This document shows, piece after piece, positions 34,918 through 40,298 of a stretch of DNA of 64,000 bases. Both the position numbers and the translations under genes were made by a program. The stretch lies in the NCBI GenBank assembly GCA_034687125.1, contig JAQGBZ010000148.1, positions 1 through 64,000 of the forward strand. The letters run 5' to 3'. The notes below the pieces were generated by a model. That model had not been told where the DNA came from, ran no database searches, and saw only the letters and a list, made by a program, of their open reading frames with translations. This DNA is from Neelides folsomi (taxonomy: Eukaryota > Arthropoda > Collembola > Neelipleona > Neelidae). Position 1 is the stretch's first letter, and each line of letters begins with the position of its first letter.

Positions 34918-36177
34918 TTATTCAGTATTTTTGTACATAAAAGCTTGAATAAATTCTTCTTCCAATGGATGAAGATTTCCAGGAATAATTAAAGAATGTA
35001 AAGGATCCCCAAGATCAACGTTGACCATTTGCCAAACAGAAGTGGCGATGAATTTTTCGCTGTCGCTCCCAACACGGGCAATTCCAATACAAAGAGCGTC
35101 TTTGGCCACGATCGGATTTTCTTTTTCTGAAATGATTTCCATGAGTTGTTCCGCCGCTTCGGCCACGCTCATGAACCGAGGAGGGTCATAAATAATCCGA
35201 CCGCGTTGAAGAGCATCCAAATTAGGTTCTTTAACTTTAATATCTAAAATGGAGTAATACATATGTTACATGTTAATTTCAGTTAATTGGTAATCATTAA
35301 TCATAATTAATCATTTAAATTGATATTTTAGTAGTTATTTTAATTAATTTATAAAATTTACCTAAAAGGCACAATGTGTGAAGACCACGTTTTTTATTTT
35401 CACAAATTTTATCGTAAAAGCTTTGGGGTTTCCAATTCTCGGTCCAATAAGGAATTGAAACAGTTTCCCCGAATGAATACAACTGCAATAAAAATAAACG
35501 AAATAAAACTGATAATCATATTAATTAATAATCATAAAGAGAAGCACTTAAAGCTAATACTAATTATTAAATGGGATAAAAATTAAATAATGAAATTAAT
35601 TAAATATTTTTATCGGAATATATTTAATTGATTATTTACTTGAAGTCCTGTGGCTCCAACAGCATTCATAATCGAAGCATTGTGAATAACTTTTGTCGGA
35701 ATTTCCAAAGCTCTTGCTCTTAAAACGATGTCGGTGTGAGTTGTCGCTCCAAAAGGATCGCCCACGACAAGAAAAGCGACGTCTTCGTCTTTCGCTCGTT
35801 CCAACATCACGTCGGGAGAGCTTTCGACCAATTCACGATCCGCCACCAAAACTTCACAACCAAATAATTCTTCCTGATAAATTAAAAAATAAAACTGTAA
35901 ATATAAATTATCGGGATTTTTAATTTGTAGTTATGCATATAATGAAGTCAAATGTAAAACAAATTCCAAGTAAAAAGATAAAATAATCAATTAACTAGAT
36001 TTTAATTGTTATTAATATAATTTTAACTTAAGTAAGTACCAAACCCTCTTTCCGTCCTTCGCAGAGCATCGAAGTGTAAGATTCCAAAAACACCTTTTTG
36101 CATTTTTTAACAATTTCCAATCCGTTGACCGTGATGTCTTTTGGATTTCCAAGACCAAGGCCAATTAAATAAAACAT
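34918..36177 (-). CDS. DPH5: Diphthine methyl ester synthase
   Basis: Four minus-strand exons in phase: 36177-36040, 35873-35640, 35482-35362 and 35243-34918, giving 272 residues (human 285). The enzyme uses S-adenosylmethionine to methylate the modified histidine of eEF2 in diphthamide synthesis, in the cytosol. Near-diagnostic blocks are [20 protein letters not shown] at the start, [37 protein letters not shown] across the second intron, [22 protein letters not shown]-like sequence at the third join (LLDIKVKE), [14 protein letters not shown] and [13 protein letters not shown]. The start ATG is fixed by homology. It is divergent to EXOC8, with about 550 bp between the start codons. Confidence 0.96.
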
Positions 36178-36499
36178 TCTTAATTCGATTCTGCACTGTA
36201 AGTTTACTTGACCTTTAACTAAATCTTAATTTTAACGTAAAGTCTTTTAATTTCATTTAAAGTTAATTTATCCAACAACGTGGAGAGCCGTGGCGGTTCG
36301 CAGGATGAAAATCGCGAAGTGGAAACACGTGAGGGACAGATGAACTTTGAAATTTGACACATAAAATAAATTCGCCTCTTTTCGTTAAAGTGATTAAATA
36401 ATTAACCTCCATTTGTTAATAAAGTTTATTAACTAAAGTACTCAATTACTGGTACAGAAATATTTTCTTCATCACAATTTAAAAGTTTAATTATCCAAA
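36178..36499. promoter_or_regulatory. Bidirectional promoter region of DPH5 and the EXOC8 transcript
   Basis: Only about 320 bp separate the DPH5 start codon and the first leader ORF of the EXOC8 transcript. Both promoters must lie here. A patch at 36280-36345 is richer in G+C (gagagccgtggcggttcgc). No TATA box stands out. Confidence 0.5.
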
Positions 36500-36538
36500 A
36501 TGGTTCGATTCAGAAATAAAAAGAAATCTTGGGGCTGA
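36500..36538 (+). CDS. Short leader ORF, 12 residues
   Basis: ATG GTT CGA TTC begins a 12-codon basic peptide (MVRFRNKKKSWG) in a good start context (AAAATGG). Its TGA overlaps the ATG of the next small ORF as TGATG, the arrangement seen where ribosomes stop and restart. It could be a regulatory uORF rather than a functional peptide. Confidence 0.4.
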   Translation: MVRFRNKKKSWG

Positions 36539-36729
36539 TGAAGGCGCTGTTCCAATTGATGTTATTAGTTATTTTCATTATTGTTTTATTATTCATTATT
36601 GTTACAATCTTAATGTAAGTTACATTTAAATCTAATTAAGTTAAAATCCAATTCAATTAAATATTAGTTAAAGTTTAAGTTTAATACTTTTTAAATTGTA
36701 GAAATAATCGTGCTGTCAAACGTCATTGA
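36538..36729 (+). CDS. 34-residue single-pass membrane micropeptide
   Basis: Starts at ATG 36538, runs to a consensus donor (AAT|GTAAGT, exon end 36614), and resumes after acceptor TTGTAG at 36702, ending with TGA at 36727-36729. The join restores phase and gives 34 residues: a nearly uninterrupted hydrophobic helix (LMLLVIFIIVLLFIIV) and a basic tail (NNRAVKRH). The EXOC8 ATG follows just 2 nt after this stop. Size and layout recall dicistronic small-ORF peptides known in arthropods and SERCA-regulating micropeptides, but I recognise no homologue. The function is unknown. Confidence 0.5.
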
Positions 36730-36731
36730 AA

Positions 36732-39700
36732 ATGGGGGAATTCTCAGCCAAAGACTTTAATCCTGAAAAATGTAATAATTAAATAATTTAATATTAAAAG
36801 TATTAAATAGTTTAATGATTTCACACTGCTTATTTAACTTTGACTTCGTTTTTATTAGACGTGAGTGAACTCGCGTCCAAATGCGTTGGCGGCTCTGACC
36901 TCAACATCCAAAAGGCCAATTTGCAATCATTGTCAGAAGAAACTCATTCAGCTCTCAAGAAAAATGTTTATCAACACTATGGACAATTCATTTCCACAGC
37001 TCACGATATTTCATGTATGAAATCAATAATCAATTACACCAATTAATTATTATTAATTTAAATATCAATTTGCAATTTCTTAACTAAATAGTTTCTAATC
37101 TTAACGGTAATTTAAATTATTATAATTTATAATTTAAATTAAATTTCCAGACCTTGCTGGCGAAATGTATCAAATTTCTCAAACATTACGAGAACAAAGA
37201 ACCGTGATCCAAAACATTCTCGATACTTCGATCATCGCAAGTCGTAAAGTTGGTTTGGGCGACGAAACCCCAACAACGTCCGAAGTGGATTTAAAATGGA
37301 ACAAAGCTGCAGAAGATGACGATAATAAAAAGAAAATGTTGAGTGTGTTGGAAAGAGTTGAAGGGTCAAGTGTAAGTTTATTAAAAACATTTATTATACA
37401 AAATCACTTTAGTCGTTGATTTTTTAATTTAATTAACAAATTTAAAATTAGATAAAAGATTTTTTATTAGTTATATGAGTATGATTAAAGAGTTTATGAA
37501 CACATAAATAATAATATTGTAATTAATTGATTTTAGAACATCATTGAACGTAACAATCGTAATTTGGTATTCGAAGGAGATTTATTAGAAATTGATCCCG
37601 ATAGTTATTCAGCAGTTCAGCGGAAACGAGGATTTTTATTTAATGATGGAATCATGTTGGCAGTTTGGGTCCCAAACAGGTACAATAATTAATAATTAAT
37701 TAATAACTTAAAATTCTTAATTACAATTATCTAATATCAATAAATCATAATTAAACATTTAAGAAACTGTAATTTAATTATATTTAAAGACGTGGTCCTC
37801 AACGTTATCGTTTCGAAGCTTTTTATGAACTGGGTTCACTCGGCCTTGTCGTGAACATTCGCGATCCAGAATGTCCAAAACATACATTTAAGCTTTTGAT
37901 CTTTCCAAGTGTTCATTTGCTTCAATGTCCAAATCAGCCCGAAAAGGTAAAAAATAAAAAAAAATAAGTAACTTTCAAGAAATGGCAACTATGATTTATT
38001 ATTAATTAATTAACTAAATGATAATTAAACATAATGTTAAATGACTTTAAAGGATTCTTGGGTGAATCAAATCGAAGGGATCCAAAAGATCTTAAGAAAT
38101 CCTTCAACCGAAATCAAAACTTTGTCATTTTCGCCCAATTCAAGTCCCGTGAAGGATTTTTCATCTGCGTTTCATTCAGCTGATTCGGAAAGGGCCAAAA
38201 GCCCTGAAGAAATTTCAATCCCTCCGTGGGCTTTTGACATCCCGGAAGATTTGGACGTTTGGATTGCCCAGAGGAATTTCCCCGAAGCTGTCGAACTTTA
38301 TGAAACTTTTACAGATCTTTATGAAACCACGCCGTTGACGCCAACATTGAAAGATATAAAGTAAAATTCCATTTTTAATTTTTAAATATAATTAAATTAA
38401 AAATTTATTTGTTAAGAATTTTAGTTGGGTCGTTTTGGCGGTTCATGTGCTATAAAGTTTAAAGAAAAATACTATTGTGTTTTTATTAAATAATTGATTA
38501 ATTGGTGTTTTAATAGTTTAATTACATTGTTATTATTACAGTTCTAACTGTAATTTTATTAATGTTTAATTGTAATTATTTTAATTGTAATTATTAATTA
38601 TGATTTTAATTTAATGTAATTTTGTTAGGAATAAAGTAGACGCGAGGATGAAAACTCTGATTGACATTTTAATCAGCGATTTGGAAATTATGACCCCGGA
38701 GAAAATTCTCCAAGGCGGTCCAAGAGCCATTCGCAAATCTGTGGATCTTTTGGTTAAACTTGGAAGGGGAAATCAAGCATCGCAACTGTTCTTGGCCCAC
38801 AGATCAGCTTTTATTAAATATCGGTAATTAAATTGAATAATAATTCTTTCTTTAAATACAATCTTTAAACGTCGTTTAAAAACTGTTTATTTAATTCAAA
38901 TATTGGAGTTAAATGTTAATAAATAATAGATTCTTTAATGTCCCTGGCCTCTTTTGTAATTTTACGTTTATGTATAAATAAAAAAACTATCATTAAAACA
39001 ACATCTTTTTAATTTGTTATTCAATTTCAATGCAGATTGAAGCGATTGAAACAAGAAGGACGAAATCAACTTTATTTGGACCAAATGGCTGTCATTTTCT
39101 TCTCAAACATTCTTGAAACAATGAAGGAATACAAAAGGAGTTTCACTTCGGAAACAACTTCCGAAACTTCTTGTAATTAGATAAATGGAATAATTATTTT
39201 TATTAGGTAAATATTAAAGAAAAAATTCATTATTTTGTTTTGTAATTCAGGTTTGGTCGTTTGGGTCAATTCCGAAGTGAATGGTTTTATCAACATTTAC
39301 TGCAAGATTTTGTTTACGCCTTCGGCTCATTTATCTTCTGTATCAAATTCTGTCGTGAAAGTTCGTCTGGAGAGTGAAAAGGTAAATTGGACAATTTTTT
39401 AAATTATTAGTTAATTTTGATATTTTGGGTTTACTTTAGCTAATTGGGTTTTAGTTAATTATGATTTGTTTTTCTTAGTTGGTTGAAGAAGGCATGGACG
39501 TGAGCTATAGCGTTGATTCCTTATTGTTACCCAATATTGAACGGACGATTATTGACGCTAAAGATAAATTGGTTGAAGCTGTGAAACATCGATATCGCTC
39601 TCAAGCTGAAGTTGGACTTCCGATGAAATTCAACGATAAAACTGCAAGGACCAGAGCTTTCAATGAAATGGCAGAATTGGGAATTTCTAATTTGGATAAT

Positions 39701-40298
39701 TATTTAAGAGGTAAAATAAGCAATTTACTAATTATTAAATAAAATGTTCAATATAATTTTAATTATTTAATTATTAAAGTTTTGAGGAAAATATTTGAAT
39801 AGAATAGAATTGGAGTTTTCTTTTTGTCTCCTAATTAATAATTAAAAAATAATTAATAATTAAATTTATTTCATAGGTGATTTATATTTGAGTTTGAGCA
39901 GCAACATAATTTCATTTTCAAAATCTTGGCTCCATTTTTGCACCGACGTTCTTCAACTAATCGGAGCCGAATGGAAACTTTTGATTGAAAACGCAATTTG
40001 TGAAGTTATCACAACGGAATTGGCAGCGCTTTCGGAAACTCTCACAAGAATCCGAAAGGATAAGGAAAAAGCCAAAGCTGTGGAGATTCTTGAAAAAGAC
40101 GCTTTGTTTCTGTTGGAAGCTGTAATTCCCATTGTGGGTCATTTGTACGCTTCGTCCACAAAGGGAAATTTTCAAGACCTCAACGCCATCACGGACAAAT
40201 TCACTCATTTGAGGAAACGGGCGAGGACGCCTACGAGTTCGCCATTCAATTCAATGAATTCTCCCAAAAGTCGCTTTACATCTCCTGAATTTGTTTAA
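36732..40298 (+). CDS. EXOC8: Exocyst complex component 8 (Exo84)
   Basis: Eleven exons in phase: 36732-36771, 36859-37014, 37151-37371, 37537-37679, 37790-37946, 38053-38360, 38629-38823, 39036-39172, 39251-39381, 39479-39710 and 39877-40298; 713 residues (human 725). The N-terminal coiled region has DFNPEKYVSELASKCVGG and LKKNVYQHYGQFISTAHDIS, both conserved in Exo84. A PH domain follows (FEGDLLEIDPDSY to FKLLIFPSVHLLQ). The helical CorEx region begins at IPEDLDVWIAQRNFPEAVEL and includes GGPRAIRKSVDLLVKLGRG. The protein is part of the exocyst, which tethers secretory vesicles to the plasma membrane; its PH domain binds Ral GTPases in mammals. AATAAA near 40662 may be the polyadenylation signal. 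Confidence 0.96.

Follow-up and report, generated by a model that had tools for sequence, protein, structure and literature searches.

The leader of the EXOC8 gene of Neelides folsomi holds two short upstream open reading frames, ORF1 and ORF2, whose appearance points more to translation-tuning elements of the leader than to an established additional gene. They lie in the window analysed here, a stretch of 64,000 nucleotides of contig JAQGBZ010000148.1. Regulatory or incidental, the two frames are probably uORFs without a selected product. By the explanation that we favour with the same confidence, they tune EXOC8 through leaky scanning and reinitiation, and the hydrophobicity of the ORF2 peptide is a by-product of a T-rich repeat.

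Architecture of the EXOC8 leader

The features of the locus, in window coordinates, are as follows.

36028–36177, minus strand: gene start of a neighbouring TP_methylase-family protein (PF00590, E 1.9e-7), head-to-head with EXOC8
36500–36538, plus strand: ORF1, 12 codons, MVRFRNKKKSWG and stop
36538–36614, plus strand: first part of ORF2 (ATG at 36538), the hydrophobic helix
36569–36603, plus strand: 18-nt tandem repeat in the helix, 2.0 copies, 94% matches, 5% indels; peptide FIIVLL-FIIV
36615–36701, plus strand: putative 87-nt leader intron, AAT/GTAAGT ... TTGTAG/AAA, scored with splice matrices from EXOC8 introns
36702–36729, plus strand: last part of ORF2 after splicing, which completes I and continues with NNRAVKRH and stop
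36732–40298, plus strand: EXOC8/Exo84 coding region, 11 exons, 713 aa, stop TAA at 40296–40298
36732–36771, 36859–37014, 37151–37371, 37537–37679, 37790–37946 and 38053–38360, plus strand: EXOC8 exons 1 to 6
38629–38823, 39036–39172, 39251–39381, 39479–39710 and 39877–40298, plus strand: EXOC8 exons 7 to 11

The downstream gene had been identified as EXOC8 and this identity is borne out by Pfam, with the VPS51/Exo84 N-terminal domain (PF08700) on residues 5–88 (E 7.5e-16) and Exo84_C (PF16528) on residues 298–504 (E 2.2e-34). Between them, the PH domain at residues 152–247 is found at E 2.1e-4 with 22.2 bits, slightly below the cut-off of 25.1, and the same region matches solved Exo84 chains in the PDB at E about 2e-17 (1zc3_B, E 1.9e-17, residues 145–236). 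With N-terminal domain, PH domain and C-terminal domain in order, the gene can be regarded on domain evidence as a genuine EXOC8/Exo84. Because the gene is real and its N-terminal domain begins at residue 5, the start codon is secure; its context, GAAAATGG, is strong. Scans for close relatives of EXOC8 returned 34 pattern matches on bacterial and archaeal contigs and 25 on viral contigs, none of them confirmed, with a single-protein query (the first 496 of the 713 aa) that sees close relatives only.

The TP_methylase-family neighbour, which we take to be DPH5-like, is divergent from EXOC8, with the two start codons 554 bp apart (intergenic 36178–36731). On the minus strand, this intergenic stretch contains frames of 49 codons (36263–36412) and 47 codons (36219–36362), possibly in the leader of the TP_methylase gene.

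Leader anatomy, start contexts, distances and composition can be read directly from the DNA. ORF1 and ORF2 each run from an ATG to a stop on the EXOC8 strand and 5' of the main start, that is, in uORF position. ORF1 starts in a strong context (CCAAAATGG), with the A at −3 and the G at +4 that mark strong-context stuORFs. Its TGA shares bases with the ORF2 ATG at 36538 (TGATG), which stands in a weak context (GGGCTGATGA), and the three starts thus follow one another as strong, weak and strong. After splicing (36538–36614 joined to 36702–36729), ORF2 comprises 105 nt and 34 codons, MKALFQLMLLVIFIIVLLFIIVTILINNRAVKRH and stop, and its peptide has basic residues at each end. Its TGA (36727–36729) is followed by the EXOC8 ATG 2 nt further 3'. 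When the intron is retained, a 26-aa frame with the same hydrophobic stretch is left, stopped by a TAA within the donor. Both the 12-codon ORF1 overlapping ORF2 through TGATG (direct reading and script) and the 34-codon ORF2 that crosses 36615–36701 and ends 2 nt before EXOC8 (script) agree with the initial annotation. We infer one shared leader mRNA, splicing of the intron and each of the translation steps discussed below.

The putative leader intron splits an ORF2 codon after its second base. Scored with matrices from the 10 EXOC8 introns, its donor ranks in the top 1.1% of 2,796 GTs and its acceptor in the top 2.4% of 2,754 AGs on the plus strand of the window; its 87 nt fall within the length range of EXOC8 introns (78–268 nt). 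By these sequence measures, 36615–36701 is a good candidate and plausibly a real leader intron. The splice sites claimed earlier are thus plausible, but the intron inside the small ORF and its exact phase, which had been taken to suggest a real dicistronic gene, do not carry that conclusion. Both are weak evidence: without splicing, the frame just ends at a stop codon within the donor, and frames of 47 and 49 codons also occur on the opposite strand of the same intergenic stretch.

Hydropathy, codon choice and the T-rich repeat

Which features of ORF2 exceed chance? We compared it with 5,000 dinucleotide-shuffled versions of the spliced leader, which measures 295 nt from 36350 to the EXOC8 ATG. 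An ATG-initiated ORF of at least 34 codons arose in 904 of the 5,000 and one of at least 26 codons in 1,797, while 290 held an ORF of at least 26 codons with a 19-residue hydropathy of at least 1.6. A hydropathy of at least 3.0 was reached in 0/5,000; the ORF2 value is 3.68. Genomic DNA gave a similar picture: among 261 non-coding windows of 295 nt (from 20 stretches, 200 kb of genome, both strands counted), 93 held an ORF of 26 or more codons and 21 a membrane-like one, with none at 3.0 or above. A survey of 264 kb, with the window among them and both strands read, covered unspliced ATG-to-stop frames of 20 or more codons; in 19-residue hydropathy, ORF2 ranked first (3.64 as the 26-aa frame; runner-up 3.23). 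Even with local composition kept, its hydropathy was reached by none of 20,000 dinucleotide shuffles and by 3 of 20,000 second-order Markov sequences. The description of ORF2 as almost one hydrophobic helix is upheld, the helix being exceptional in shuffles, genomic windows and frame survey alike, and the membrane-type stretch exceeds chance for its composition.

The junctions are less telling. Of a further 5,000 shuffles, 326 had an ORF whose end fell no more than 2 nt from the main start, 1,255 had a start that overlapped a stop and 30 had both in one chain; like those for hydropathy, these figures are post hoc, the spot having been picked for these same features. Tight spacing had also been offered as evidence for a gene; the chain is indeed rare, but as support it is weak and post hoc. 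Thus, neither the length of ORF2 nor its open frame nor a broadly membrane-like character stands out in a leader so rich in A and T. Beyond chance lies the extreme hydropathy and, to a lesser degree and judged after the fact, the junction chain, and nothing else.

Codon choice was scored with a coding table from 67 long ORFs and an intron table from EXOC8. The synonymous codons of ORF2 score −3.8 bits. Simulated coding choice for the same peptide gives 10.0 ± 5.7 bits, with 0.6% of simulations as low as ORF2, and simulated intron-like choice −7.8 ± 4.2 bits, with 16.5% as high. Over the 24 codons past its ATG, ORF2 scores −1.6 bits, under all 17 hydrophobic windows of MFS transporters (mean 10.2, lowest −1.0), controls drawn from eight match loci that have a G+C of 0.36–0.53 versus 0.23 and of which four (L027–L030) carry in-frame stops. 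Among the eight windows of the subset L024–L026 (stop-free L031 left out), the mean is 13.7 and none is as low as ORF2. Such scores are also found in ordinary genes: 9.0% of 501 ordinary 24-codon coding windows are as low, and of five hydrophobic windows taken from long ORFs, which average 2.1, two (−1.56 and −1.15) differ from ORF2 by no more than half a bit. The codon use of ORF2 is thus nearer to intron than to coding sequence, which leans against an established coding sequence, although not decisively. For ORF1, the score over 10 codons is +1.9 bits, a slight lean towards coding choice.

The helix DNA is T-rich (38 of 74 bases) and includes the 18-nt tandem repeat. T occupies the second codon position in 16/16 consecutive ORF2 codons, versus 7/16 for the first position and 8/16 for the third. 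Such a run would be expected from selection for a helix and also from a trinucleotide-like repeat; slippage and duplication of a T-rich repeat could produce a string of F, I, L and V residues with no selection at work. Consistent with this possibility, T-rich non-genic DNA is described as a source of transmembrane peptides in the part of PMC7005711 available to us. Like the de novo transmembrane ORFs of yeast in that account, ORF2 is a T-rich stretch that would yield a membrane-type peptide without known homologues; unlike them, it belongs to the 5' leader of a gene in an animal.

Searches with the ORF2 peptide returned nothing from the PDB (phmmer, E up to 10), and all eight Pfam matches were under the cut-off, the best being TMEM156 at E 0.086. 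No second copy of the leader or of the peptide was found in the 75.1-Mb genome, where each occurs once, by a search that scores the best candidates only and skips simple repeats. Titles and abstract openings held nothing on an upstream ORF of EXOC8/Exo84, which is likewise not named in the main text, as far as available, of two surveys of conserved-peptide uORFs (PMC2276209, PMC7530721) or of PMC4528330. A literature search that combined dicistronic, smORF, transmembrane and arthropod found nothing.

Possible modes of translation

How might such a leader act? Two short uORFs would set the number of ribosomes that arrive at the EXOC8 start. Scanning ribosomes would start mostly on ORF1, with its strong context, and terminate at TGATG after 12 codons. 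Most post-termination 40S subunits, not yet reloaded with initiator tRNA, would then bypass the weak ORF2 start and reinitiate at the strong-context EXOC8 ATG, about 106 nt further on in the spliced leader. The ORF2 start would be mostly passed because it is sited on the ORF1 stop and some distance is usually needed to regain initiator tRNA. A minority of ribosomes, leaking past ORF1 or reinitiating on the spot, may translate ORF2 and thereby cut EXOC8 output further. In this way ORF1 would act twice on EXOC8, restricting its output and protecting it from ORF2.

The elements of this scheme have precedents. Reinitiation after short uORFs is a common arrangement, for which the accessible text of PMC5972666 describes a minimum distance over which initiator tRNA is regained. 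In Drosophila, DENR-MCT-1 serves reinitiation after short strong-context uORFs (PMC5972666 and PMC5473865, each in excerpt); this reinitiation is reported there as independent of distance (PMC5972666), and the dependence on DENR-MCT-1 declines as the uORF lengthens (PMC5473865). By analogy, the DENR-MCT-1 route is possible at the EXOC8 leader, and because it is reported as distance-independent, ribosomes might begin at the overlapping ORF2 ATG instead of bypassing it. ORF1 resembles stuORFs as a 12-codon uORF with a strong context ahead of a main ORF; it differs in its length, 2 and 4 residues being the larger sizes given for fly reporters in the available part of PMC5473865, and in the second uORF that begins on its stop codon. 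The overlap of two ORFs also recalls stop-start coupled termination-reinitiation in human mRNAs, in which, according to the portion of PMC3923131 seen, a first coding ORF is followed by a second that uses 3' UTR sequence; the first ORF of the EXOC8 leader has 12 codons.

Does ORF2 instead encode a selected product? If the gene is dicistronic, as the initial annotation suggested, ORF2 would encode a selected single-pass membrane microprotein of 34 aa, translated from the same mRNA as EXOC8, which would be reached by leaky scanning. We consider this rather unlikely. Its extreme hydropathy, the basic residues at both ends and the 2-nt spacing speak for a product. The weak-then-strong order of starts is that of Drosophila sloth1 (ACACATG) and sloth2 (CAAAATG), which share one mRNA 5 nt apart; there too, a small membrane-type ORF precedes its neighbour by a few nt and lies in a different frame. 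The two sloth peptides are short, similar to each other (27%) and conserved in other eukaryotes, whereas the second product here is the 713-aa EXOC8 (sloth details from the available part of PMC9681215). By this analogy, leaky scanning past the weak ORF2 start may be another order of use. Dicistronic pairs are no rarity in flies, with 159 of them in FlyBase release 6.04 (from the portion of PMC4528330 at hand), and the low codon score is shared by about 9% of ordinary coding windows. Against a selected product stand codons nearer to intron and below those of every transporter window, the tandem repeat within the helix, the lack of a Pfam match over the cut-off, a PDB match or another copy found in its own genome, and the strong ORF1 start, which would capture most ribosomes first. 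Overall, hydropathy and junctions favour a product; the repeat and, with less force, codon choice favour unselected leader DNA. We hold it unlikely that ORF2 gives a membrane microprotein specific to this lineage, which may have arisen from the T-rich repeat and would share its mRNA with EXOC8, and whose nascent helix would bring that mRNA and its ribosomes to the membranes of the exocyst, or which would itself act on secretion.

Two further arrangements would alter the leader itself. EXOC8 transcription may start 3' of ORF1 and ORF2, or the leader intron may go unused, so that the ORFs are not in the mRNA as drawn; this is quite improbable, a good donor and acceptor and a normal intron length suggesting an exon 5' of 36615. 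The ATG-free stretch 36343–36499 before ORF1 gives no sign of a scanned leader, and it is uninformative because 17% of 5,000 shuffles are also ATG-free there. More doubtful still is a single membrane microprotein of about 46 codons, split into ORF1 and ORF2 by a one-base assembly error or joined by frameshifting. The ORF2 frame is open back to 36520, within ORF1, the strong start belongs to ORF1, and 21 of 37 one-base insertions (placeholder base, 36503–36539) fuse the frames, versus 0 of 37 deletions; however, openness across about six codons is often expected by chance, no second haplotype was found in the genome and inspection by eye showed no clear slippery site.

Should ORF2 prove to be conserved, a membrane peptide would be tied to an exocyst gene at the mRNA level, and the locus would offer a clear case of such a peptide born from T-rich leader DNA. 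With the two frames as uORFs, the reading that we prefer, the locus is one more example that may tune an exocyst subunit, and it cautions that AT-rich leaders readily give membrane-like frames.

The sarcolamban, phospholamban and sarcolipin micropeptides share with ORF2 a size of about 30 aa and a single hydrophobic stretch. Membership of ORF2 in the sarcolamban family was considered and gained no clear support from alignments with six micropeptides. Shuffled versions matched or beat the alignment score in fractions of 0.31–0.54 for four of the six, 0.14 for OST4 and 0.017 for fly SclB, values uncorrected for six tests. A search for SclA and SclB in this genome found no match and is uninformative by its own criteria.

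Other observations in the genome

The insect odorant-receptor family 7tm_6 has three modest matches (C362:18955–19614, C641:1101–1958 and C52:219167–219382; best E 8.0e-8), to be read as at least three in the 75-Mb genome since counts for large families are lower bounds, and one of them passes the cut-off only with its neighbours. The MFS-transporter loci L027 to L030 contain 1, 3, 4 and 6 in-frame stops, from introns or decayed copies. The four of L029 are TGA only, possibly reflecting another genetic code or a contaminant.

A piece of a mitochondrial contig (L003, on C742) carries COX1, read under code 5. The frames that flank COX1 are, by eye, presumably ND2, COX2 and ATP6, in the common arthropod order. 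Together with the 7tm_6 matches, these mitochondrial genes make an arthropod source plausible. No tRNA was found by ARAGORN on this piece, and its COX2 frame is long, at 262 codons.
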